Shown: in pieces, positions 6,761 to 51,037 of the stretch
Layout: every line of letters begins with the position of its first letter
Position numbering within the stretch: the first letter of the stretch is position 1
Assembly (NCBI RefSeq): GCF_018143015.1
Contig: NC_054758.1
Coordinates: forward strand, 21,606,501-21,670,500
Source of the DNA: Lytechinus variegatus
Taxonomy: Eukaryota > Echinodermata > Echinoidea > Temnopleuroida > Toxopneustidae
Length of the DNA: 64,000 nucleotides
Reading direction: 5' to 3'
Translations under genes and position numbers: made by a program
Notes under the pieces: generated by a model
Seen by the model: only the letters and a program-made list of their open reading frames with translations
What the model was told of the DNA's origin: nothing
The model's database searches: none

Positions 6761-7102
6761 TCAATATGCTTTACTCGGCAATGCCTTTTGCATGTCTTCA
6801 GGCAAATGACTGTAATCGTAAATGAATTTACACACTATTTTCGGGGTAACGTTGGGGGCGTACTCGACCTCGAATCTGGACAGATTACTGTTCGCGCTGT
6901 CCTTCATGACTCGGTCTTTTCCGCCGGGGATCTCGACGTGGAGTTCCTCGATGAAGTAACAAAAGAGTTCTTTGAACAGCAGACCGTGTCCCACAACGAG
7001 GACGTGGATGAGGCGGTCATTGGTCGTCGTCGTTTCGTTCTTCTCGAGCTCAACCTGCTTCTTGCAGACGTCGTAAAAGGCTTTCACGACTCGTTGTCTT
7101 GC
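6761..7102 (-). CDS. TIGAR: TIGAR-like terminal exon 6
   Basis: The acceptor AAACCACAG opens 113 codons and a stop. The exon carries the second catalytic histidine in HVLVVGHGLLFKEL followed by FCYFIEEL, matching human [22 protein letters not shown]. A long insert that human TIGAR has before this motif is shorter here (a run of four threonines). Confidence 0.95.
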   Translation of the reverse strand, partial: ARQRVVKAFYDVCKKQVELEKNETTTTNDRLIHVLVVGHGLLFKELFCYFIEELHVEIPGGKDRVMKDSANSNLSRFEVEYAPNVTPKIVCKFIYDYSHLPEDMQKALPSKAY

Positions 7103-10100
7103 CTGTGGTTTGTAGGAATGAAAAATGAATGAGAATTAAAGATGATTATATATTATATACATAATAAAAATGATGATGTATGAATATTCATGTATTGTGC
7201 AAATTTTATCTCTCCCAACATGCAAAAGACCCAGACCACGTTTTATAGCTAGTCTGTTGTGCAAACCGTTTCCTCGAGTAAAGTGGTCTGAATTCGTAGC
7301 CTACAATGACTAGTGTATTGAAGACCCTCTCTTTTTAAAATAATTCTAGTTTGGTAAAACCATCTCATACGTATACGGAGTTGTCATAGCAACACACTAT
7401 TTCATAATCAAGTGTATAATATCAATATAATATACAATTTCACTGTACACTATGGATCAATAACTTTTTGATAAAAACTACTTAAAACAACGAGAACAAA
7501 AACATAGAAAAATAAACAATAGAAAGATTGCCTAAATTACCATGAACTTAAAGATTCCATTCTAGAACAAATCTACGCATAGTGGTGCTCCTATAAGCAA
7601 TTATGTTTAAGTTTGGTAGACTTGCTTTAATTTGGTAATAAACAAGTCAAAACATGGCCCTGAAGGCAGGATATTGATATGTCATTAGATATGAAGTTTT
7701 CTTTGCTAAAATAATACAATTTTGATAAGTTTTCTTTGCTACAATAATATAATGATTTAACAAAACGTGTTTGTTTAAAGACACTCTCGCTCAGAAACTG
7801 AAACAGCAAATTTTACATTTCTAAATCAATGTGTAATATTAGTAGCTAAAAGTAACGTTAATATTTCGAAAGTAATAAACCTAGTAATTGAACTCATCAA
7901 ACTCAATGACTGAAGTGGTATTAGGATATGAATGTTTGAAGTAGGCCTATATTTAAAGGTGAAGTCCACCTCAGAAAAATGTTGGTTTGAATTAATAGAG
8001 AAAAATCAGACAAGCACAATGATGAAGATTTCATCAAAATCGGATGTAAAATAAGAAAGTTATGACATTTCAAAGTTTCACTTATTTTAAACAAAATAGT
8101 TACATGAACGAGCCAGTTACATCCAAATGAGAGAGTCGATGATGCCACTCACTCACTATTTCTTTTGTTTTTTTATTGTTTGAATTATACAATATTTCAA
8201 TTTTTACGAATTTGAAGATTAGGACCTCCTTGCCTGAAGAACAAAATATTAAAATAATGGAATTCCACGTGTTCAGGGAGGAATGAAACTTCATTTCACA
8301 TGAGAATGACGAGAAAATAAAAATATTTCATATAATAAAATACAAAAGAAATAGTGAGTGAGTGATGTCATCAGTTCCCCCATTTACATACAGACCGAGA
8401 TGTGCATATAACTGTTTTGTGAAATGAAGCGAAGCTTTAAAATGCCATAACTGTCTTATTTTACATCCGATTTGGATGAAATTTTCAGTGTAATGCTTGT
8501 TGAACTTTTCTCTTTTTATTCAAATAATTTTTTTTGTTGGTGGACTTCTCCTTTAAACTAAGTTTCTTTCAAAACTTAGTGTGTAGTATTAGTAGTGTAG
8601 TAGTTAGAGTAAACTAAAAATAAAAATGTATGTTTCGAAAGTGGCAAAGTAAGTATCACATGATCGACCCATAACACACAAACAAACAAACAAACAGTTA
8701 CTTGCTTTTTTGAAAAGCATGAAATAACTGAACTCTTTAATCTGGATTAATCAGACATGTCAGAAATGATTTCAAAGTAGTTGATAGCAAAGGAACGACT
8801 AAAATTAACTCAAATTGGCTTTTCATTATATAGTAAGGGAAAAGCGTTGTCATATCGGACAGGACCTGCAAAAGCCCCAGCCCATCCACTTAAAGAGTGT
8901 ACAAAAAAGTAAAATAATTACCATCTGATTGCGAAGTTGATCAGCAACCCCCCCCCCCCCACCTCCCTTCAACACCCGGACTGCATGCAGTAAAAAAATG
9001 TATTTTTTTCCAGAATCATTGTGATTTATGTCAGACCAAAATTTTACTAGTAAAAATAAGAGCGGGGGTATTTTCCTGCGTAGACAAGATGTATTCCACT
9101 TGCAAAAAATAAAATAAAAAAGACTCTCAAGGGGGAGGGGTTGACAATCCGCCACTGTAGGCAAAAAATGTTGTTGTTTTTTTCGTTTTTTTACATGTTT
9201 TAGGGGCTACTTTTTACTACTTTTAACTTTCCTAAATATATACAAAATATTGGATAAGCTAAACATTAAAACGAAAGGGAATCGTGGAGCATTGTGGCCC
9301 AGTGGATAAGTCTTCTGACTTTGAAACAGAGGGTCGTGGGTTCTAATCCCAGCCATGGCGTAATTTCTTTCAGCAAAAAAATTATCCAAGTTGTGCTGCA
9401 CTCGACCCATGTGGGGTGAATGGGTACCCGGCAGGATTAATTCCTTGAATGCATGAGCGCTGAAAGGCAGCTCGAGCTAAAGCCTGGGTAATAATAATAA
9501 CAACGCTCCTCGGAATAGAATATTTCTAGATAGATGGCGGTATCTAAATGCCTATTATTATTATTATTATTAATCCGGGCTTCAGTTCCTTTTTAGTTTC
9601 CGGGGCTAAATGGCCCCGGGGCCCCCTGTATTTTTCCCCTGATATACATGCTATCTTAACCAATCATTTGAAAGAATATACATTTCATTTTCAAGGTTGC
9701 TGCAACTAAAACATTGACACATGGCAGAGACACTGAGGGGCCAAATAGGGCTACTGAAATTCCACAAAGACCCCTTCGCATCTCAGAGATGATAATAATA
9801 CGTTCATTTATATAGCACAGTTTATATGTGCATATATACTCAACTGCGCTTTGATACTTGGTATCATATTATTAACCCGGCTGTAGCTGAGCCGCCATCG
9901 GCCTGCGCTAAAGCGTTCAAGGAATGAATCCTACCGGGTATCCATTCACCTCACCTGGGTCGAGTTCGGCACAATGTGGACAAATTTCTTGCCGAAGGAA
10001 ATTACGCCATGGCTGGGATATTAATTATTTGTTTTTGTCTCTTTGAAAGTCAATTGGCGTTTGAAGTGGTACTTTCCGTTCCTATAATTGTTCACAAGAG

Positions 10101-13100
10101 ATTTGGTTTCTTTATATGGTCCTTCAAGTTTAATATATAGTGTTCATTGAATATAAATACATCTTTATATATTCTCATTTTACTGCTAATGAGTCAACGA
10201 TTCTGAAACCTAATCGAGATATGTGATATCGAGCGCATGGCGCTCGATAAAGTGTTTTGGGTAAGGAAACAAGTTAAAAAGGTAAAAGATATTTTCAAAT
10301 CAATCTTCTCAGCTGAAGTCCATGTGCTGTTAATGATTTACATCTACTTTTATCCAAATAACTATTTTCAAGTTTTACGCAAAACATTTCTCATGAACTT
10401 TTCAAAAGTAAGTGTGGTGCTCACTCAAGCGGAAAGATTTTTTCGACAGTTATATCGTTATTAAGAGATCTGTACCAACATGACCAAGTTATAGATGTGA
10501 AATAAGTTTCAGGATATTACAGATATATTATTACAAAGGATCATTTGCTAAGTGTAAACTTTATGTTTGAGACGTACTGTAGATTCATATGAAATTCATA
10601 TGATGGAAAATCGAACAAAGAAGAAGATAGACTCTGGAGCTTCTTACCTCTTCAAAAGATTCACCGCCCAGTGGAACATGGGAACGGAATGTCAGGCCTT
10701 CCGAAGACAAAAAGCTTCTATACTCAGAGATCTTGATGCCCTCTTTATCACCAAAGCTCTGTCAATATAAGAGAGGAGAGAATCATGAATATCATGTCAT
10801 TTGATTTCGAACAAAATCAAGATTAGATCATCTAGCCGATTTAATACAGATTGATAAGATTGTGTAATCGTCACAGTTAAGTTAAATATATAGCATGGAC
10901 GTTAAAGAACTGAAGAATATTAGATCAGAACGGTGTCACTGGGTGTGTTCACACTTAGGAGTACGTCTTTTGCACTCTTAGTTACCAAGAATGAGTATAT
11001 TATGATTTCAATTCATTTGCATGCAGGATAAAATAGCAAGTAATTGCCTTGCTCAAGGGCATAAGAGCCTGTTAACATGTGGTTCAGTGTCAATACGATT
11101 CCAAACTGCGTACACCTCTGCAGTCTGGATGTAGACAGTGTGTTTAGACAGTGGACTTTTATTGTGATTCACATTCTTAAAACGCTCAAAGTCAACGGTG
11201 TAAAGATTATATCAAACTGTGGACACTGGATATTTGGATATTATTGAATCCTAAAAGCAAATGAAGATACAGGAATTTGTATAGAAAATCGCCACCAGTA
11301 ACTCGAATTAGTGGCGGATCCAGGGGGGGGGGGGTGGGGACGGCCGGCCCGTGCCCCGCCCTTTTGAGAGGCACAATTAAAACGCAAATTTTACTCTGGA
11401 GCGGAAAATTGCCCGCCCCTCACTCCTCACAAAATAACTTGTGCCCCCTCCCCCGTTGAAAGTGAAGGCTTTTGTCTTATGCTTGTCAATTGTTACTCCG
11501 GAAAATGTCCCCCCCCCCCTTTCCAAAAAGCCTGGATCCGCCCCTGCTAGAATGATCTGTATTATCAAAATTAGTAATGATAACTGAAGATGTAAAAACA
11601 AGAAAAATCAATTGTTTTAAAACACTCACCCGCTCTCTCAAGTCAACTTCCTTTACAACATCGAGTGGGGGCGTCCTTAAAGATTTGAGAATGAGCTCGG
11701 TTGTCTGAGGTGGGAAAATAAACATAATTATAAGCTTGTTCGTAAATACGACACAATAATTAGGGATCGCAGAACGGTTTGGAAAGTGTATGTGGGGGGG
11801 GGGGGGGGGAGAGGGCTGACCACGCAAAAATCACAATCAGATGATCATTTTAACGCTTTTGTAAATGGTTTTGGAAAAAAAGTGATAATTGTGTTGCTGT
11901 TTTTTTTTCGTTGTTTCTCCCGCATCCATATTTTAAAGATCAATAATATATTTCATATTTTCAATTCCACATCTATTGATACTGCATGATGACTTGCTCT
12001 TAACATATTTTATTAGTTAAATCATGAAGAGAGAAAAAAATATGTCGGCCATTATACCTGGTTGCATTCAAGTCAAGCAAAGATTTATTTCCCTAATATG
12101 GAAATTAGAATAGAGGTAGTGAATGCGGATATAGTTTTTTAATTTGAATTACGATTGTGCACGGAAAAAAGGCACAAACCAAGAGACTTTTGATATATTG
12201 TGACAGAAATGAATAATAATAATGATAATAGTAGCTGGATTTATAAAGCGCTTCTTGCCTGAGGATACAAAGCGCGAATGAAGAGAACAATGGTAGGCGT
12301 AGCTTAATTCAAAGTTCCCCAGACATGCCAGACCTATCTGCCATTCGGAAAAATTGGTGATGCCCAAAAAAAGTCTCCGCCGGGAATCGAACCCGGGCCC
12401 CCAGATTTTAACACGGGTGTCTTAACCACTAGACCACAGAGACGGGTTGGTTGTTATGGCGATACCAAAGCGATTGACCGTCATCAGATAAACAGAGTTT
12501 TGACACCACCAAACCAATGTCCTTTGTCGGGTGTAGATGAGTTTTGAACAATGTCAAGCCGCCATGCCTCAGCTGGATCAAAGCTATTGCTTTGATACAG
12601 TACACGTATGGGAGAAAGTATACAAAATGTGAGAAATTATACATGTACAATAGCTTTGACAACTCTTTTTATTTCAATATATTGTGAAAGAAATAAATGA
12701 AGAGAACAATGGTAGGCGTAGCTTAAATCAAAGTTCCCCAGAGCTATCCGCACTCATCTACACCCGACACCCGAAATTTGCTTGGTGGTATCGAAAATCT
12801 GTTTATCTAACGGTCAATCGATTGGGGTCGCCATAGCCACTAACCCGTCTCCTTGGTCTAGTGGTTAAGGCACCAGCGTTCAAAGCTGGGGGCCCGGGTT
12901 CGATTCCCAGCGGGGACATTTTTCCGGCTTCAACAATCTTTCCAAACGTTGTTTTGAAATTATTCTTTTTTTAAGATTTCCTTGTCTCACCTGTGCTGCT
13001 CTCAGGAGGTCGCTCGTGTAAACATAATCAATCTTCTCATTGGCTAAACGATGGCCCAAACTCTCCGCTTGAAGGACGCCATCTCCCGATAGGGGTGAGT

Positions 13101-21672: not shown

Positions 21673-21789
21673 TCTACGGCGGCCGTACGGCGAGTCGATA
21701 ACAGCCGTTTTATTCAAACCACCTATTTGTAGCTGGTTAAAAAATGTTAAAACGGCTGTTTTCGACTCGCCGTACGGCCGCCGTAGAGC
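21673..21789. mobile_element. Short fold-back MITE (family I)
   Basis: The arms of about 38 bp, starting CTACGGCGGCCGTACGGCG, are inverted with one or two mismatches around a 40-base centre. A half copy with ATACGGCGGCCGCACG lies at 41474-41515. Confidence 0.85.
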
Positions 21790-22153: not shown

Positions 22154-22335
22154 TCAGCAAACCGATGCAAGTTCTTGAGACGTACAGCCGGTCACACAGC
22201 AATGGCGACCCATCGGGGTGTTTGGACGAGCGAAAAGCGATCGCCTATACCGTGGAGCAAAAATGATATCGGATAGACTTGGACGCAGCCGTTCCTCTGC
22301 TTGTCCTGCGAGGTCGTACCATTCAAAGGGTGTGT
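22154..22335 (-). CDS. Relaxin-like precursor, exon with C-peptide end and A chain
   Basis: After the acceptor ATTACTGTTTGCAG, two bases complete a codon, then TPFEWYDLAGQAEERLRP, the cleavage site RYRR and the A chain, ending in cysteine and TGA at 22156-22154. The longer open frame over the same bases (22428-22192) is in another frame and is a shadow. Ending at the last A-chain cysteine is typical of the family. Confidence 0.9.
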
Positions 22336-25026
22336 CTGCAAACAGTAATTAATAACAAAACGGATGTTGCTTAAGTCAACCAAGAATGAAAAAAATATAC
22401 AGATTATAAATGAATTTAATGATGACATATAAAAGTATCCTTTAAATATTTATTTCGATGCCCCTTCCTCCAGAATTTCTAGTTGAAATAATATTTTGTT
22501 TAAACTTACAAGTAAACACAATTATAGTGGATATGTATTAGTTATGGAGCACACTTAAATACCCGGGAGAGGCTTTAAGTTTGGGTTGATGCATCAATTT
22601 CCTTTCTCCTTTGAGTACCTTTTTTTTTATTAGTCCATTAAGATTTTTTTTGGCCCGTGATAATTTTTCACTATACCAATTATATTAATTTTTTTCACTC
22701 TGATCATGAGTCTTTTTTTTTTTTGGGGGGGGGGTAAAATAAACTTCTAGCCCCCCCCCCCGGATACCTAATGTTTGTCCCTTAGGTTTGTAAGAAATGA
22801 GATTAAGATAAAATATATATTTAAACAAAATAAAACGTTCATTTATTTTTTTTCACTCTATAATGAGCACCTTCACTGGCAGAAAATGTTAGACAGGGGT
22901 GGAGGATGTAATCGCAAGGGACCTCATTAGAATGTTGATATGTTGTTTAAATTTGCACTTTGATATTTCGTATAAAAATAATGATGTACTTCGATTCCAA
23001 CATATCCTTGTCATTTGGATTGTTAGTTAAAAGTAGGATGTGGGAAGATTAAAAATAGTCTATGAGATGGATGGGGGTGGCAGTTTATCAAAGAAAAGTT
23101 CGTATGGTAAAAATGTAATGGTAGGTCGTATGGCTCCGCCTAGAGGAGGAAAGTATGGGAAGAGAAAGTTTGCATACATACTGACTCCTTTTACCGTGCT
23201 ACATATACATGCATACATTCTTAAAGGTCAAGTCCACCGTTCCCTAGAGAAATGCTGATTTAAATAAATAGAAAAAAAACTAGCATAACATTGAAAATTT
23301 CATCAAAATCGGATGTAAGATAGGAAAGTTATGACATTTCAAACTTTCGCTTATTTAACACAAAACAGTGATATGCGTAACTCAGTGACGCATTCTTTAT
23401 TTTATATTGTTTGAATTATACAATGTTTAATTTTTACAGAGATGACAGTAAGGACCAACTTGACTGAACCATATGATATTAAACAATGCTAATTCCACAT
23501 GTTCAAAGAGGAATAATCGTTGTTTCTCTTGACAAAGAGGAGAAAATTCCAATATTTCATATTTCAGATGATAAAATACAAAAAGAAAACATTGAGTGGA
23601 TGAGGTCATCAGTCTCCTTATTTGCATACCGACCAGGATGTGCATACTGTTTTTTGAAATTTAGAGAAACTTTAAAATGTCATAACTTTCTTATTTTACA
23701 TCCGATTTTGATGAAATTTTCAGTGCTACATGCATGCTAATTGGATTTTTCTCTTATTATTCTAATCAACTTTTGTAGGGGTGGACTTGACCTTTAAGAA
23801 ACTGTTTACACTTCAGGTTATTTAACATGCCTAATGGAATATCCAATCATTATTATCTATGGCATTCGTTCGTAATTTTCCTCGTAAGGGAATCATTTCC
23901 AACAAGTCATTTTTCTGTGTGTGCTGTTCATGATCCTCTCACCAAAGATATTTATGTTACCTTCAGTCTTTTCGTATTTTGTTCGTATAATAATATGTAC
24001 GTGTATGAGAAGTGGAAAACCAATAACGCCCCTTTGTTGTTTAATTTATCATGTTGTAGAATTTTACACACCCCGAGCTTGTAAATGTTACCCAAATCAG
24101 TTATCAGGAGAGACCTGCGGGTCACGGTGATTCAGTTCGCTTTTCGCCTGCCAGGTTCTGGTGATACCAAAAGAATAATATATTAATAATTTTAGCCAGT
24201 GACGCTATTTATTTGATTATAGAAAGGGGAAAGAAATGAAAGAGACCTGTAGCCAATAAAAATATGTCGCTTAGACATGTTAGATGAATGATCTTATTAT
24301 CTATGATAAAAATTATTCGCAAATGCGGGATCTTTAGGGAGAAAAACAAAAATCTGACCATAATGTCTTCAAGTTTTCTTCATACCATTTATTTTTTTAA
24401 GGAATTCAACATGTTCAAACTAACAGGTAAAAACCCAGATTGTGAGCATTCAGAATAATGCATCTATTCTATGATCAGTGCAGTGACCTTAGTCATAACA
24501 TAGAGACCGCTTCCTGACCGACCGATGATATGTCATTGATAATAACGTAATAGCTTTGACCGGTCTGGAGTCGGTTTCTTTGGTGTGACTATAACCGGCA
24601 CCGATTCCTAACCGATCGATGATATGGCATTGGTAATAACGTAATAGCTTTAATCGGTCTGTCCAGTCGGTTTCGTTGGTGGGACTGTGGTATATGCATG
24701 AGGTCAATGTGTAAGAGTGTGACAATCAAAGGTGTTTATCAATTGGTGTATCCCATGCGGTTGCTATGGCAACTTCACAAACCTTGTACTTGACCATATC
24801 CGGTGTCACGTGCTAAATATCTGTCAGCCAATGGTATATCACTGATGGTGCCTGGATCGGAACGTTTGCTGGCCCGTGAGCAGTGGTTGTAGACAGCCCT
24901 GGCGAACTCAAGACCACACAGCCTGACGCGGGTGAGGTGCTGCCCCTCGGCCGGGGCTGCTCCGATGAGAATGAGGACGGTTGTGACTGCTGCAGCTGCT
25001 GCGACGAGATTGGTCGTGTGAGACAT
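22154..25026 (-). CDS. Relaxin-like gonad-stimulating-peptide-type prohormone, two coding exons
   Basis: Joining 25026-24783 and 22335-22154 gives 426 nt and a 141-residue secreted precursor. Residues 1 to about 28 are a signal peptide (alanine/valine-rich core). The B chain has C37 and C49 (LCGLEFARAVYNHC), and KR at 54-55 is a likely processing site. The C peptide ends in a furin-type RYRR (110-113). The A chain (114-141) carries CCVTGCTSQELASVC. There are exactly six cysteines: B chain C-x11-C and A chain CC-x3-C-x8-C, the insulin/relaxin superfamily pattern. The intron falls in the C peptide in phase 1, the family's conserved position. The A-chain end GCTSQELASVC resembles starfish RGP (GCTPSELSVVC). 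RGP triggers gamete release in starfish. In the B chain only the second arginine of the relaxin RxxxRxxI motif is present. Another insulin-like class (gonadulin, ILP) is possible but less like it. Confidence 0.9.
23221..23797. mobile_element. TTAA fold-back element, sea urchin type (copy 2)
   Basis: It starts TTAAAGGTCAAGTCCACC and ends GGTGGACTTGACCTTTAA (one base differs in the arm). Inner arms repeat CATCAAAATCGGATGTAA in inverse. It is 577 bp and sits in the relaxin-like intron. Confidence 0.9.
24490..24690. repeat. Family C palindromic units (two)
   Basis: Two units with CGATGATATGTCATTG, TAATAACGTAATAGCTTTGA and CGGTCTGGAGTCGGTTTC. The first unit has lost most of its left arm. Confidence 0.75.
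24782..24784 (-). promoter_or_regulatory. Splice donor deciding the C-peptide junction
   Basis: CAAG|GTTTGTG on the minus strand. It yields a GAC (Asp) codon across the junction with the exon at 22335 and keeps the frame open through the A chain. Confidence 0.75.
24783..25026 (-). CDS. Relaxin-like precursor, exon with signal peptide and B chain
   Basis: The ATG at 25026 follows an acceptor at 25043 (TTTCTCTGTCTTTCCAG) and 16 non-coding bases. The exon encodes residues 1-81 plus one base and ends CAAG|GTTTGTG. The chosen donor gives phase 1, matching exon 2. A weaker donor 12 bases upstream (ATG|GTCAAG) has the same phase and would remove four residues. GC content is higher than in the surroundings. 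Confidence 0.9.
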
Positions 25027-25401
25027 GGCTGATTTGGTGAAACTGGAAAGACAGAGAAAGGAAAAAATAATGCTGACTGATTTTGGATTACTTTCACATG
25101 AAAAAGCACATAATAACCATCAAATCTTAAGTTTCTTTCACTTGAGATGGCACTACTAAAAGATTGCAGGAACTGTTCAAGAATACAAGGCAAAGCTGCA
25201 TGTACATGTATTAGCTATTAAAACACCCAGATGAGAACAATCTTTTTAACTGAGATTTTTCACTGCGATATGGCCAACTTAACATGCTTAAGGTTAACAA
25301 ATCTGGGGGAAGAGATTGAATACCTGGTCTGAACTTTACGATGTTCCTTGCCCTAAACCATAAAGTTTGAAGATCCCTATTTCTTCAGCGGACGTACATA
25401 C

Positions 25402-25480
25402 CTGTGAACTGTTAAGGAAAGGCCCATTGTTCTGTGAAATGATTGTCGTTCGCAGTCACCCACTCACACACCGCACATTC
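25402..25480 (-). other. 5' UTR exon of the relaxin-like gene (start uncertain)
   Basis: A perfect donor, CACAG|GTATGTACG, ends at 25402 on the minus strand and pairs with the strong acceptor at 25043, giving a 359-bp intron in the 5' leader. The upstream limit is arbitrary because no clear TATA box or initiator was found. Between here and 25610 lies the likely core promoter, with a GTGTATACC segment at about 25550. Confidence 0.6.
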
Positions 25481-45713: not shown

Positions 45714-48602
45714 TTAAATCAACCATGTGAGACTATCGTTATCCAAAAGAAAGAGTACATTATTGGGTGACCATGTTTTAAGAAATAAAGCCAAATTGCT
45801 TTGTAATTTGTGGAATTCATAATCAATAATGACTCTGTTTTTAATTCTAAATTTCCAAAACGGAAGCGGATCAAAAAAACGAGAGGTTCGGTAAAGCCAA
45901 TATAATGTGCTTTTAAGACTAACAATAAGAAAGTTGGATAGGCGCACGGCTTCCCTGCTACGACCTCTTGCATGTGGAACCAAGGTCCAGTAGAGGTCAA
46001 AGTCAATGTTCACTTCGGGCAAAAGACATGAAAGGAGGTGGTGAAGAAGATCCAAGGCTGGTTGAATAGAAGTGCACTCGATAAAGAGGTGTAATATAGT
46101 TCCTTTCTTGCCACACCATCCACATGAAGAGGAGATGTCGGAATTAAGGTGATGAAGAACGGCAAGCGACGGAAGGACATTATGTAATAGTTTGTACTGA
46201 GTGTCCCCATCTTTCTTAGACGAAGGATAGTAGTAGATTTCAGTCCAGTTGATTAGTGTAGGTGGGGAAAGTATCCCAATCTCGTGCCAATGAGTAACTT
46301 GAGTTCTAGGAAGAAAGTTAATAGAACGGTTGAGGATTCGATATATCGATTTAGTGGGTGTGGCAAGAATGTTCTTGTTGTCCTTAGTTATAATCGAGAA
46401 CGGAGAGTTGATAGGTTCAGCCAGATTGTGAAGATGAGTTGAAACTATTGACAGTCTAAGTCCGCTATTTAAAAAGAATCTGGGAAACAAACTGGAAATC
46501 ACTTTGTGAAGTCGAGAGAGGTCAAATTCCAAGAGCCGTAAAGATGGACGCTGCAGGGTGGATGTGATGGCGACCTCGTCTGCTCGGAGCCAGGTACCGT
46601 TGTTCGGGTTTACAAGATGTTTGACGAGTTTGATTCCACATGCAAATAATCTAGCAGGGAAGATCTTGTCGCCATCCAGTGTGTAATGAAGAAAATTATA
46701 ATAATTCAAAGGAATATTGAACACATGGTTGACAGTGAAGGACGATGTCTCGATGCTGGCTCCAGAGATACCCCAAGCACGCAAAATTTCCGAATAGAAA
46801 CAAGGAAGACTGGTATAAAACTTTGGGTCTAATTCAGTCAGAAACAAAGAAAAATCAAAATTTAATTTCTTATATCTCCGAAGATTATAAGAACAAAAGG
46901 TATACGCGGGATGAGAACAAAGATTGAGATAACGCTGTAAAAAGGCAAAACGAAACGTGAGTGTTCGTGCTTGGAGACATACCAAACCAAGTCCACCTTT
47001 GTTAGGTTGTTGAAACAGAATTTGCTTTCTTAAAAGATGTCGTTTTCCGGACCAAACAAAATTAATAAGCATTTCTTGGAGTTCATCCAGTATTTGCTGA
47101 GGGGGAGATAAAACTGCAAGGCAATGAAACAGTTTAGATGCAGCTAGTTGATTAGCAATAATGATTCTGCCTTTGAAGGATAGACAAGAAGAAAGAGAAC
47201 TCCATCGAGATAGAGTCTTATTTAATTTTTCTTTACACTTTATCCAGTTGTTGTATACAAAATTATTGTTATTACCCAGATGAACTCCAAGAAAAAGGAG
47301 ACCATCACAATTCCATTTGAAATCAAGGGGCCTGTCAGTACGTTTCGACCATGATCCAGCCCACAGTCCTTGAGATTTTACATGATTAAGGCAGGCGGCC
47401 GAGGCCTTACTAAAAGTGTTATATGTATCAAGAATAATATCAAAGCCTTTGTCTTCAGTGACAAAAATTGATATATCATCTGCATATGCAGAGACTGAGA
47501 CATTCATATCCGTGTTAGGAAAAGAAAAAGAACATGAAGCAAGATTAACTTTTAACTTGTGCAGCAAAGGTTCTATGGCTATCGAGTACAGAAGGCCAGA
47601 CAAAGGGCAACCTTGGCGTATGCCTTTTTGAAAAGGAAAAGGCGCAGTGAGGGATCCACACACTTTGACTAAGCCCTCGGCATCATTATACAAAAGTTGA
47701 ATACAAGAAATGAAAAATTCTCCAATACCCATAGCTCTCATAGTGTTAAAGAGATAATTATGATCTACATTATCAAAGGCTTTCCTTTGATCCAAATTTA
47801 CTACTGCAAGAGGGGTATCATTACAATTAGAATAGTGTACAATGTCTCGGATCAAATTTAAATTATCATAGATTGTTCGATCTGGAACACAATACGTTTG
47901 GTCTTCTGAAACAATATTAGAGATATAATGTTTTAGTCTATTAGCAAGTACCTTGGCAAAAATTTTGTAGTCATTATTCAGAAGAGAGACTGGTCGCCAG
48001 TTGGCAATGTCTGCCAGGTCTCCCTTTTTAGGAATCAGTGTAATCACTGTCCTACGAAAAGTATGTGGAAGGGTTCCAGTACTTATGGCATATTGTAATA
48101 CAGAAAAAAGATCATTTTTTATCAATGGCCAGAAAGTCTGATAGAATTCAGAAGAAAGTCCATCTAGACCAGGCGTTTTATTTTTCCCGAGCAGTTTAAC
48201 AGCATTATCAAATTCATTAAGTGACAAAGGAGCATTAAGACTTTTTGAATCTTCAGTATCAAGTTTCAGTAAGTCAGATAAAATATTATCAACCGCATTA
48301 TCATCAGTTGGCACACGACTGTACAAACTCTTATAGAAATTCCGAACGTGAATTTTAATATCACTCTGATCCTCTGTAATGTTACCCGAAGGGAGACGGG
48401 TACGAGAGAGTGATTTAAAAGTGGAGTTCGATTTTTCAAGACCGAAAAAATAAGCTGAGCTAGTGTCTATCTCATTTGCATATTGAAAACGTGACCTTAC
48501 AAGAGCACCCTTGGCTTGATTCTTAAGAAGAATGTTTAATTCATTTCTTTGTTCAGCAAGGGCCTGCTGAATATCAGGCGTGAAGTCAGGCGAAGATTGC
48601 AA
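45714..48602 (-). CDS. LINE ORF2, reverse transcriptase part
   Basis: This frame has 962 uninterrupted codons. Reverse transcriptase motifs are in order: KTPGLDGLSSEFY (about 142-154), LIPKKG, NWRPVSLLNNDYKIF, DQRKAFDNVDH (271-281), GIRQGCPLSGLLY (327-339) and the catalytic AYADD (372-376). Near the C-terminus a CGWCGKKGTILHLFIEC motif matches the cysteine/histidine motif of L1-type ORF2. The first codons overlap the endonuclease frame, and the continuous protein requires the frame change noted there. With the endonuclease it would be about 1,300 residues, the usual size for the group. Confidence 0.96.
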   Translation of the reverse strand: MQSSPDFTPDIQQALAEQRNELNILLKNQAKGALVRSRFQYANEIDTSSAYFFGLEKSNSTFKSLSRTRLPSGNITEDQSDIKIHVRNFYKSLYSRVPTDDNAVDNILSDLLKLDTEDSKSLNAPLSLNEFDNAVKLLGKNKTPGLDGLSSEFYQTFWPLIKNDLFSVLQYAISTGTLPHTFRRTVITLIPKKGDLADIANWRPVSLLNNDYKIFAKVLANRLKHYISNIVSEDQTYCVPDRTIYDNLNLIRDIVHYSNCNDTPLAVVNLDQRKAFDNVDHNYLFNTMRAMGIGEFFISCIQLLYNDAEGLVKVCGSLTAPFPFQKGIRQGCPLSGLLYSIAIEPLLHKLKVNLASCSFSFPNTDMNVSVSAYADDISIFVTEDKGFDIILDTYNTFSKASAACLNHVKSQGLWAGSWSKRTDRPLDFKWNCDGLLFLGVHLGNNNNFVYNNWIKCKEKLNKTLSRWSSLSSCLSFKGRIIIANQLAASKLFHCLAVLSPPQQILDELQEMLINFVWSGKRHLLRKQILFQQPNKGGLGLVCLQARTLTFRFAFLQRYLNLCSHPAYTFCSYNLRRYKKLNFDFSLFLTELDPKFYTSLPCFYSEILRAWGISGASIETSSFTVNHVFNIPLNYYNFLHYTLDGDKIFPARLFACGIKLVKHLVNPNNGTWLRADEVAITSTLQRPSLRLLEFDLSRLHKVISSLFPRFFLNSGLRLSIVSTHLHNLAEPINSPFSIITKDNKNILATPTKSIYRILNRSINFLPRTQVTHWHEIGILSPPTLINWTEIYYYPSSKKDGDTQYKLLHNVLPSLAVLHHLNSDISSSCGWCGKKGTILHLFIECTSIQPALDLLHHLLSCLLPEVNIDFDLYWTLVPHARGRSREAVRLSNFLIVSLKSTLYWLYRTSRFFDPLPFWKFRIKNRVIIDYEFHKLQSNLALFLKTWSPNNVLFLLDNDSLTWLI

Positions 48603-49621
48603 TTTGTCGATGGTTTGGTAATATTTAATAACGTTTCTCTCTTCTCATTGGCTAACTTGGAGCCGTACATTTGAGTGAGCGATTTAATGTGGTATTTACC
48701 AAAGTCCCACCATGATAGAATGTTAGGAAAGTTGGCTTTTTTATTTTGCCAGTCCGTCCAAAATTGATGAATGATATTTCTGTAGTCGTTATCATCGAGA
48801 AGAGAATTATTAAGTTGCCAAAAAGCACTTCCTCTTGGCTTCTGTGGGGGGATTTTAATTTTCAGGGAAATTGCACAATGATCAGAGAGAGTGCAAGGCA
48901 GAATACGACAAGCGTGTATTGAAGGTATTAGAGGGAAAGACACATAAAAACGATCAAGTCTGGCTTTAGAAACACCATATACACTGTGAGGATTGTTTCT
49001 ATGCCAAGAGAATTTCTTTTCACGTGGGTGAAGTCTTCGCCACGCATCACATAATTTATTACTTTCAATCACTTTCTTGAGGGCAGATGATATCTTAGGT
49101 CTATGCTCATTAGGCATGCACAATCTATCCAATGTTGGAGATAGGGTACAGTTAAAATCTCCCCCAATTAAAAAAACACCGTCGCTGCACTGATTAATAT
49201 GATGCGCAAGAAGACGAATGGCCTTAATAGCAAGGTTATCATCCTGTGGCATTAAAACATTATATAAATGATACATGCCACTATCAAACTCAATTTTAAC
49301 ATATAAGATATGACTATCAAGTATAACTAAGGAATCTGTGATGCTACAATGGTTATTCTTTACAAGGGTAGCAACTCCAGATCCTCGATTATGTCCGGGG
49401 GCACAAAAAGGTTTATAGGATGACCATAAATCCCAACAATGAGAATGCTGGGAGAGGTCATTTATTTCTTGTAAAAACACAATATCAGAATCAAAGGCAA
49501 TGTTATCAACATAAGTAAAAACTGAGGCATTCTTCATGGCATTGGAGCAACCTCCAGTGTTAAGGGTGAGCAACGACAGAGTCATAAAAAAGGAAAGAAA
49601 GGCATGCATGTCTACGTTCAT
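48536..49621 (-). CDS. LINE ORF2, endonuclease part
   Basis: The ATG at 49621 opens 361 codons. APE-like endonuclease motifs are visible: FLQE (residues 49-52), the RGSGVATLV segment, GGDFN (153-157), LDRFYVS and LSDHC (about 245-249). This domain nicks target DNA to prime reverse transcription. The last 30 or so residues before the stop are out of frame: the true path shifts at about 48633-48642 into the reverse transcriptase frame. Confidence 0.93.
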   Translation of the reverse strand: MNVDMHAFLSFFMTLSLLTLNTGGCSNAMKNASVFTYVDNIAFDSDIVFLQEINDLSQHSHCWDLWSSYKPFCAPGHNRGSGVATLVKNNHCSITDSLVILDSHILYVKIEFDSGMYHLYNVLMPQDDNLAIKAIRLLAHHINQCSDGVFLIGGDFNCTLSPTLDRLCMPNEHRPKISSALKKVIESNKLCDAWRRLHPREKKFSWHRNNPHSVYGVSKARLDRFYVSFPLIPSIHACRILPCTLSDHCAISLKIKIPPQKPRGSAFWQLNNSLLDDNDYRNIIHQFWTDWQNKKANFPNILSWWDFGKYHIKSLTQMYGSKLANEKRETLLNITKPSTNCNLRLTSRLIFSRPLLNKEMN

Positions 49622-49644
49622 ACTAAAAAAGAAAGAGGGTCATA

Positions 49645-51037
49645 TTAAAGATCTAGTTTTTTGATCAATTTGTAAATCCTCTGCTGTGTACTTTTCGTAA
49701 ACAGAGGACTGTTTCTCAAAGGTCTCAGTTGTCTAACAAGTCCTGGTATGTTGGAAGTGAATTTTTTTGCTACTTCTAGGGGTTTTTTCCGTGCTTTAAC
49801 AATTTTCAGAAATTTGCAAAGTTCCTTGGAAGAGAGGGGTCCTTGACTGGATGGGAATGAGGAAGCCCAGTCAAAGGATTCATCGTCAGTCTGTGCATCA
49901 TCCCATACCGTTACGTCATCAGTGTCGGTAGTGTCTACCGTGGAAGCGGGAGAGGGTGGGGTTGGTGATGTAGAGAGTAGGACGGGAGTTGGGGAGGGAG
50001 GTTCTGAGGTCATAGGAGAGGAGACTTTTTTCATTAATTTCCGGGGTGGGGTAGAGGAGGCAATTGAAATAAGTTTGGGGGAGTCTTCTACAGGAGGTAC
50101 GACAGGTTGTTTCCTTTTTGCGACAACATCTGCAAAGAGTCTGGAAGGGGCGGGCGGTGTTCCCCAAATGGTGTCGCAAGGGGTTTGGGTCAAAGGAGAG
50201 GTGGGGGCCTCGGGAAAAGGCATTTTGTCCCGGCTAATGCCCACGGAGTCGCTGCTAGTTTGGCTATTATTATTGCTGTGCAGATTATTCGCGCCCTGAA
50301 AACTAGCAGAGGCTCCTTCAGCAGTCACGGCAACATTAGAGTGCGGAGAGGCTGGCGTAGGACTGGGGCCAATAGAATTTTCTGTGCGTACTGGGGACGC
50401 CCTCTTCTCAGTGGTTTCGGGTACAGACCGTTGTGGTTTAGGTTTAGATACTTTAGGGGGATGACGTGGGTCCGATTTTCCTTTAGCTTGTGGGTTTTCA
50501 GACTCATCTTGACGGACTGATTTTTTGCAGTTCTTACTGAGATGGCCAGCCTCGCCGCACTCAAAGCAACGAGCCGCCTCAGTGGAAATAAAAACGCGAT
50601 AATTGATACCAGCATGAGTAAAATTAATGAAATCGGGTGGAGTGACATTCGGACTAAGTAGCACCTGAACTTGACGACGGAAGGACATGATGTGAGCTAG
50701 ATGTTTGTCCTTGAAACCAATAGGAATAGCTTAGACGGATCTGTGAGACTACTTTACAGAAAGATGAAATTTGTTTGACAAGAACAGAATTGGGAATTTC
50801 AGTGTATACATTAGACAGTGTAATACGGGTTGTCGGCAAAGCTAAGGGTGAGATCTCAATAAAAGCGCCTTTAAAGGTCAAGCCGTTGTTCACCGCGCTC
50901 AGCACATCTTCTTTAGAATTCAGGTACATGGCAATTCTTTGGTTACTGATGCGGGAAGCAGACACTATACAATGGGCTGGAATTGTGTCTGCGAATGCCC
51001 TTATGTAATCATGAATAGGAACATGTGCAGCAGCCAC
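49645..51037 (-). CDS. LINE ORF1 (RNA-binding protein with CCHC knuckle), one frameshift
   Basis: The first part (51037 to about 50730) contains ITLSNVYTEIPNSVLVKQIS, an RRM-like segment typical of Tx1-type ORF1. The second part (ending 49645) begins in the other frame just before SFRRQVQVLLSPN and has the knuckle CFECGEAGHLSKNC (C-x2-C-x4-H-x4-C, at 50568-50527), then a long proline/serine/threonine-rich tail. The shift lies at about 50727-50737. The first part opens with GTG and has no in-frame ATG after the upstream stop, so the true start is unclear. Such proteins bind the element's RNA to form the transposition particle. Confidence 0.85.

Follow-up and report, generated by a model that had tools for sequence, protein, structure and literature searches.

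The window analysed here, that is, the whole stretch of 64,000 nucleotides, carries on its minus strand a two-exon gene for a two-chain peptide hormone. This gene is very probably the ortholog, in a sea urchin, of the gonad-stimulating substance (GSS) of echinoderms, also called relaxin-like gonad-stimulating peptide (RGP). Coding exon 1 (24783..25026) has a signal-like N-terminus followed by the B chain, a KR site and the initial portion of the C-peptide; its phase-1 donor comes after position 24783. Coding exon 2 (22154..22335) contributes the remaining C-peptide, an RYRR site, the A chain and the stop codon. Joined on the minus strand, 25026..24783 and 22335..22154 amount to 426 nt, or 141 codons followed by TGA. 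An earlier note on this DNA had united the B and A chains in one two-exon model, and all parts of that model lie where it had placed them, separated by an intron of 2447 bp. The further traits it had listed (signal-like N-terminus, KR and RYRR sites, six cysteines and a phase-1 C-peptide intron) are each present in the joined frame. The A exon is also masked by longer frames, as had been claimed; its own frame of 64 codons overlaps one of 85 codons. The gene is real and intact.

The prepro-hormone has exactly six cysteines, at residues 37, 49, 127, 128, 132 and 141. The B chain, QHLTRVRLCGLEFARAVYNHCSRAS, follows the pattern C-x11-C and occupies 24942..24868 if the signal peptide is cut before Gln-29. 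This cleavage, APAEG|QH, was judged by eye; it is the likely one and would leave an N-terminal Gln. The A chain, SLFARPNTPMGRHCCVTGCTSQELASVC (22240..22157), shows the pattern CC-x3-C-x8-C. Its last Cys is the C-terminus, with the stop codon TGA (22156..22154) immediately after it, and a D/E extension is absent. Convertase sites delimit the 54-residue C-peptide at both ends: a KR prohormone convertase site (residues 54–55, 24862..24867) lies C-terminal to the B chain, and an RYRR furin/convertase site (residues 110–113, 22241..22252) N-terminal to the A chain. The C-peptide is interrupted by a phase-1 GT..AG intron (22336..24782) with the donor ACAAG|GTTTGT and the acceptor TTTGCAG|ACAC. This intron bears repeats. 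At 23218-23800, it harbours an element roughly 580 bp long whose 21-nt inverted ends are perfect; a 73% copy lies at 7953-8556 and partial copies near 41.5 kb, which suggests a family of the MITE-like (miniature inverted-repeat transposable element) or foldback type. A tandem unit of about 94 bp is found at 24488-24692, with relatives at 3.6-4.06, 15.0 and 29.1-29.4 kb.

Upstream of coding exon 1, a possible leader intron (GTATGT..CTTTCCAG, 25043..25401) may follow the end of a leader exon (25402..25427) with an in-frame ATG at 25427..25425. Its borders, the donor CACAG|GTATGT after 25402 and the acceptor CTTTCCAG|TTTC before 25042, have candidate splice signals that are good by eye. The leader splice proposed by the earlier note is thus plausible; it would add 14 residues through a phase-2 intron. 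A translation start at 25026 is nevertheless the preferred prediction, because published GSS genes have the C-domain intron as their sole coding intron. With this start, the phase-1 C-domain intron is the only coding intron of the model; if the ATG at 25427 were used, the leader intron would be a second one. The nearest polyadenylation-like AATAAA 3' of the stop codon lies at 21709..21714 (minus strand), in AT-rich DNA where it may occur by chance.

The anatomy of the gene is complete and not chance-like. In all six frames of the window, the A-chain motif CC-x3-C-x8-C occurs once, and this occurrence is the A chain of the gene. Among 300 dinucleotide shuffles, the motif appeared in 11, and the motif followed by a stop codon in one. 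A gene-like pair, defined after the candidate had been seen as a signal-like B exon, a phase-1 GT, a phase-1 AG and the A motif, appeared in none of the 300. The base composition is exon-like: the GC content of the coding exons is 57% and 53%, that of the intron 34% and that of the sequence 3' of the stop codon 33%, with 2-kb steps through the window ranging from 0.33 to 0.43. Only 0.09% and 2.0%, respectively, of same-sized stretches of the window (taken in 20-base steps) reach the values of the two exons.

A search of the genome (869.6 Mb in 33 contigs, only the best candidates being scored) with the 141-aa protein returned two matches, one per exon, on chromosome C19 at 21.63 Mb; it yielded no second copy at E <= 0.001. 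The Insulin profile, run on the same genome, did not detect this gene. It marked seven places at E <= 10, five of them on C19, and the four that exceeded the cut-off are the four exons of two insulin-like growth factor (IGF) genes. IGF1 (2.90 Mb) and IGF2 (3.06 Mb) are located on the same chromosome as the window gene, about 18.5 Mb away. A sub-cut-off A-chain exon at C19:3105797-3105904 (minus strand), some 42 kb away from the A exon of IGF2, has one extra Cys directly after the last canonical one. It probably belongs to octinsulin, less likely to dilp7. A scan of 200 kb (C19:3.0-3.2 Mb) revealed no A-chain motif beyond IGF2 and this exon, and no separate dilp7 gene was located there. The profile places on C2 and C3 are both below the cut-off, and the one on C2 contains internal stops. 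According to PMC8286064, GSS has been reported in Strongylocentrotus and Lytechinus (Veenstra, 2021), is unduplicated in Echinoidea, has the phase-1 C-domain intron as its only coding intron, and lies on the chromosome of IGF, octinsulin and dilp7, the distances being 6 Mb (S. purpuratus) and 28 Mb (L. pictus). The copy number, linkage and intron of the window gene all fit this description. When the 141-aa model was compared with viral and other genome contig collections, 4 and 97 pattern matches, respectively, were obtained, none of which was confirmed by tblastn, as expected for an animal gene.

The peptide is very probably of the RGP type, as the earlier note had proposed. In a single-pair BLASTP comparison with the RGP chains of Asterias rubens, which were identified by mass spectrometry (PMC5396301), the mature chains scored 34.3 bits (E 9e-10) with 19 of 51 positions identical, one of the 19 identities being due to the KR linker that we inserted into the A. 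rubens sequence. Two markers that PMC6389678 gives for distinguishing RGP from IGF, a Gly before the third A-chain Cys and a C-terminal Cys, are both present; the former stands in the motif CCVTGC. Scored position by position with BLOSUM62, the cysteine cores gave 98 for A. rubens RGP, 86 for Patiria pectinifera RGP (letters mass-checked), 65 for insulin and 55 for IGF1; the human chains in this comparison were entered by hand. Of the other relaxin/insulin-like peptide (INSL) members, relaxin-3 scored 98, INSL5 90 and relaxin-2 84. After shuffling of the non-Cys residues, the scores of the two RGPs and of four relaxin/INSL peptides were reached in none of 5000 trials each, those of insulin and IGF1 in 35 and 29 of 5000. 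With one extra column in the core, the IGF1 and IGF2 of the same genome scored 61 and 66 vs 99 for A. rubens RGP. By these measures, the window peptide appears nearer to RGP than to insulin/IGF, with relaxin/INSL about equally close.

Database searches add weak matches only. A search of the Protein Data Bank (PDB) with the whole precursor gave four rows at E <= 5, headed by the A chain of INSL3 (0.023), followed by the B chain of INSL5. The two chains gave 12 rows at E <= 10, with INSL3 at the top (0.004) and insulin second (0.059); INSL5, more insulins and relaxin-3 follow, and one row is unrelated. The B chain alone matched INSL5 and relaxin-3 in four rows. The A. rubens RGP chains, used as a query in the same way, retrieved five rows, all of them relaxin and INSL3 A chains.

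Several observations speak against the assignment to RGP. The highest cysteine-core score is that of INSL3 (107), not that of A. rubens RGP (98). The B chain on its own is more similar to relaxin-3 (10 of 15 positions identical) and INSL5 (9 of 15) than to A. rubens RGP (6 of 15), which qualifies the RGP-type reading of the earlier note. Pfam PF00049 (Insulin) stays below its cut-off of 23 bits with the precursor (13.4), the two chains (18.2) and the pro-hormone (14.6). The chains of A. rubens RGP also miss this cut-off (13.3), their best row being nematode Ins_beta with 20.0 of 21 bits, and PF00049 therefore covers the RGP group poorly. The B-chain receptor motif of asteroid RGPs is matched at only one of three positions; this motif is a class-level trait and does not define the family. 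In a tree, the window peptide and the two starfish RGPs split off together with an ultrafast bootstrap of 77. This tree comprises 11 sequences, seven of them entered by hand, and 34 columns; with so few columns, it favours RGP over relaxin weakly. Furthermore, splicing, processing, secretion and gonadotropic action are predicted from the DNA sequence, and the published echinoid GSS was likened to the window gene by its gene description.

The closeness to relaxin/INSL raises the alternative that the gene encodes a vertebrate-relaxin-type hormone, a genuine ortholog of relaxin/INSL and independent of starfish RGP. The B-chain identity to relaxin-3, the core score with INSL3, the INSL3 A chains at the top of the PDB rows, and the INSL5 and relaxin-3 rows of the B chain would all agree with it. 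By identity, however, the A chain is as close to starfish RGP as to INSL3 (9 of 18 each), and starfish RGP itself matches relaxin/INSL A chains in the PDB. In addition, the relaxin cassette is reduced to LxxxRxxY, the B chain has AVY in common with starfish RGP, and the tree split leans the same way, which leaves this alternative very unlikely. An insulin/IGF-type growth factor gene, signalling for metabolism or growth through a receptor tyrosine kinase (RTK), is highly improbable. Three points could be read in its favour: the B chain shares RLCGxE with the IGF2 of the same genome, the core is identical to either of the two IGFs of that genome at 13 of 34 positions, and in the two-chain PDB search an insulin ranks above INSL5 and relaxin-3, with insulins filling 5 of the 12 rows. 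PMC8286064, moreover, traces GSS back to a duplicated IGF and argues for an RTK. Yet the window peptide lacks a D/E extension and an Asn after the last Cys, has a Gly before the third A-chain Cys, and coexists with two IGF genes elsewhere on C19. The earlier note had named a placement with insulin/IGF as one outcome that would tell against its reading, and the small tree keeps the window peptide apart: insulin and the IGFs, own and human, form one group (support 95) that leaves it out. The tree is thus good evidence, within its size, against insulin/IGF, and this alternative is largely refuted as to family.

Sea urchins and other echinoderms have two further insulin-related types in common, dilp7 and octinsulin (PMC8286064). 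These could likewise be invoked in place of GSS, but their chance is smaller still. The peptide has six cysteines, not the eight of octinsulin, and the probable octinsulin exon sits at C19 3.106 Mb. As for dilp7, few residues separate the likely signal cleavage from the B chain, which leaves no F domain, and the single coding intron of the model leaves no phase-2 hormone intron; these dilp7 traits were judged by description. Least probable of all is a pseudogene or a chance juxtaposition of open frames. It could appeal to a model drawn from DNA and to the Pfam score under the cut-off, but it conflicts with the intact frames, the canonical splice sites in matching phase, the exon-like GC content, the processing sites in the right order and the absence of gene-like pairs among the shuffles.

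If the gene is the sea urchin GSS, its prepro-hormone would enter the secretory pathway and form three disulfides in the insulin/relaxin pattern. Cuts at KR by a prohormone convertase and at RYRR by furin or a convertase would remove the C-peptide, and the A-B heterodimer would be released, probably by cells of the nervous system or the gonoduct, with gonadal receptors as its target. The GSS/RGP-type relaxin-like hormone is reported to make starfish and sea cucumbers spawn. In starfish, the dimer, and not the separate chains, elicits the gonad response, and the follicle cells produce 1-methyladenine, which leads to oocyte maturation. Sea urchin oocytes complete meiosis in the ovary before spawning (PMC6442644). 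Because the oocytes have already passed meiosis in the ovary, the downstream step in sea urchins must differ from that of starfish; the hormone would be expected to act on gamete release, on somatic cells of the gonad or on earlier ovarian meiosis, and not as a starfish-like last-minute trigger of 1-methyladenine. A gonadotropic role in sea urchins has about an even chance of being correct. Searches of open-licence literature turned up no functional test of sea urchin GSS, which does not prove that none exists; spawning is forced with KCl or acetylcholine (PMC10216564). The earlier note had also presented the gene as a candidate for the spawning hormone of this class. Its type, RGP/GSS, agrees with that, but the candidate is not newly found, since sea urchin GSS has already been published (PMC8286064): the gene type was known in sea urchins and the hormone is not new. 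Sea urchins are laboratory models and support a fishery, and a correct gene model provides the peptide to synthesise and the exons to target for a knockout.

The receptor of the hormone is a matter of dispute. Starfish RGP has been assigned an RXFP-like G protein-coupled receptor (GPCR) (PMC7682835), and GSS has been argued to act on an insulin RTK (PMC8286064). The proposed receptor contact of asteroid RGP is the B-chain motif D/E-xxx-M-xx-F/Y (PMC10216564), in A. rubens E-xxx-M-xx-Y; the cassette of vertebrate relaxin is RxxxRxxI/V (PMC4772807). At the corresponding positions, the window B chain reads L-xxx-R-xx-Y, which also matches the relaxin cassette at one of three positions. It is a hybrid that combines the middle Arg of vertebrate relaxins with the aromatic final residue seen in starfish RGP. 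The receptor contact may have shifted, the hormone therefore acting on an RXFP-type leucine-rich-repeat GPCR (LGR) or on an insulin RTK at another step, gamete release, although this suggestion, read from the chain motifs, is tentative and rather less likely than not to hold. Either way, the hybrid motif bears on the choice between the two receptor types.

The window has further features besides the hormone gene. A LINE-like element with open frames for a reverse transcriptase, an endonuclease and CCHC knuckles occupies 45714-50730 (minus strand). In a Pfam scan of 10 of the 36 open reading frames of at least 110 aa in the window, only three frames of this element exceeded the cut-off. Two tRNA-like matches at 12372-12443 (minus strand; Phe AAA) and 12847-12918 (plus strand; SeC TCA) have odd anticodons and are perhaps short interspersed elements derived from tRNAs, or pseudogenes. 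An open frame at 6761-7135 (minus strand) resembles the end of PDB 3dcy (E 0.002), which we take to be human TIGAR, and is possibly an exon or pseudo-exon. Elsewhere in the same genome, a match to bindin was found at E 4e-66. Bindin is a sea urchin sperm protein, and starfish have one too. Together with the insulin-family layout, this match makes the source very probably a sea urchin. The genome has 19 chromosome-scale contigs (C1 to C19, each at least 23 Mb), a number that would fit Lytechinus, L. pictus as well as L. variegatus: PMC13419447 reports 21 for Mespilia globulus, in one-to-one correspondence with S. purpuratus, and two additional fusions in both Lytechinus species. Four of the remaining 14 contigs measure 5.8 to 15.7 kb; one of these, C33, looks mitochondrial, with open frames under the echinoderm mitochondrial code over 10,000 of its 15,693 bases. 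Two bindin loci lie on C13 at 18.60 Mb and 24.95 Mb, at a distance of 6.3 Mb from each other. They belong to a duplicated block that spans about 17 kb of the 20 kb compared and is 94-98% identical in its long pieces; the reading frames of the two copies differ late in the last exon. The duplicate is either a segmental duplication or a misplaced assembly haplotype.

Among known systems, the closest is the echinoid GSS described for S. purpuratus, L. variegatus and L. pictus (PMC8286064), with which the window gene shares the unduplicated state, the phase-1 C-domain intron as sole coding intron and a position at megabase distance on the chromosome of IGF and octinsulin. If the genome is that of L. 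variegatus, the window gene is the very L. variegatus GSS of that study. Starfish RGP, as known from A. rubens (PMC5396301) and P. pectinifera, has the same six-Cys two-chain layout, the A-chain Gly-Cys and the C-terminal Cys; the AVY of the B chain recurs in A. rubens and is AVF in P. pectinifera. The B chains differ in RLCGLEFAR (window) vs KYCDEDFHM (starfish), and the C-peptide of P. pectinifera RGP is reported to have 44 residues vs 54 in the window gene. Relaxin-3 and INSL5 share RLCG-x-E-F/Y-x-R in the B chain, and INSL3 shares Gly-Cys-Thr..Gln..Leu..Cys in the A chain, whereas the first Arg and the last Ile/Val of the vertebrate relaxin cassette are missing from the window B chain. The IGF1 and IGF2 of the same genome belong to the same superfamily and lie on the same chromosome, but they differ by their long, charged C-terminal extensions and by A chains of the forms CCHNRC..YCN and CCDNEC..YCN, with an Asn after the last Cys and no Gly before the third.

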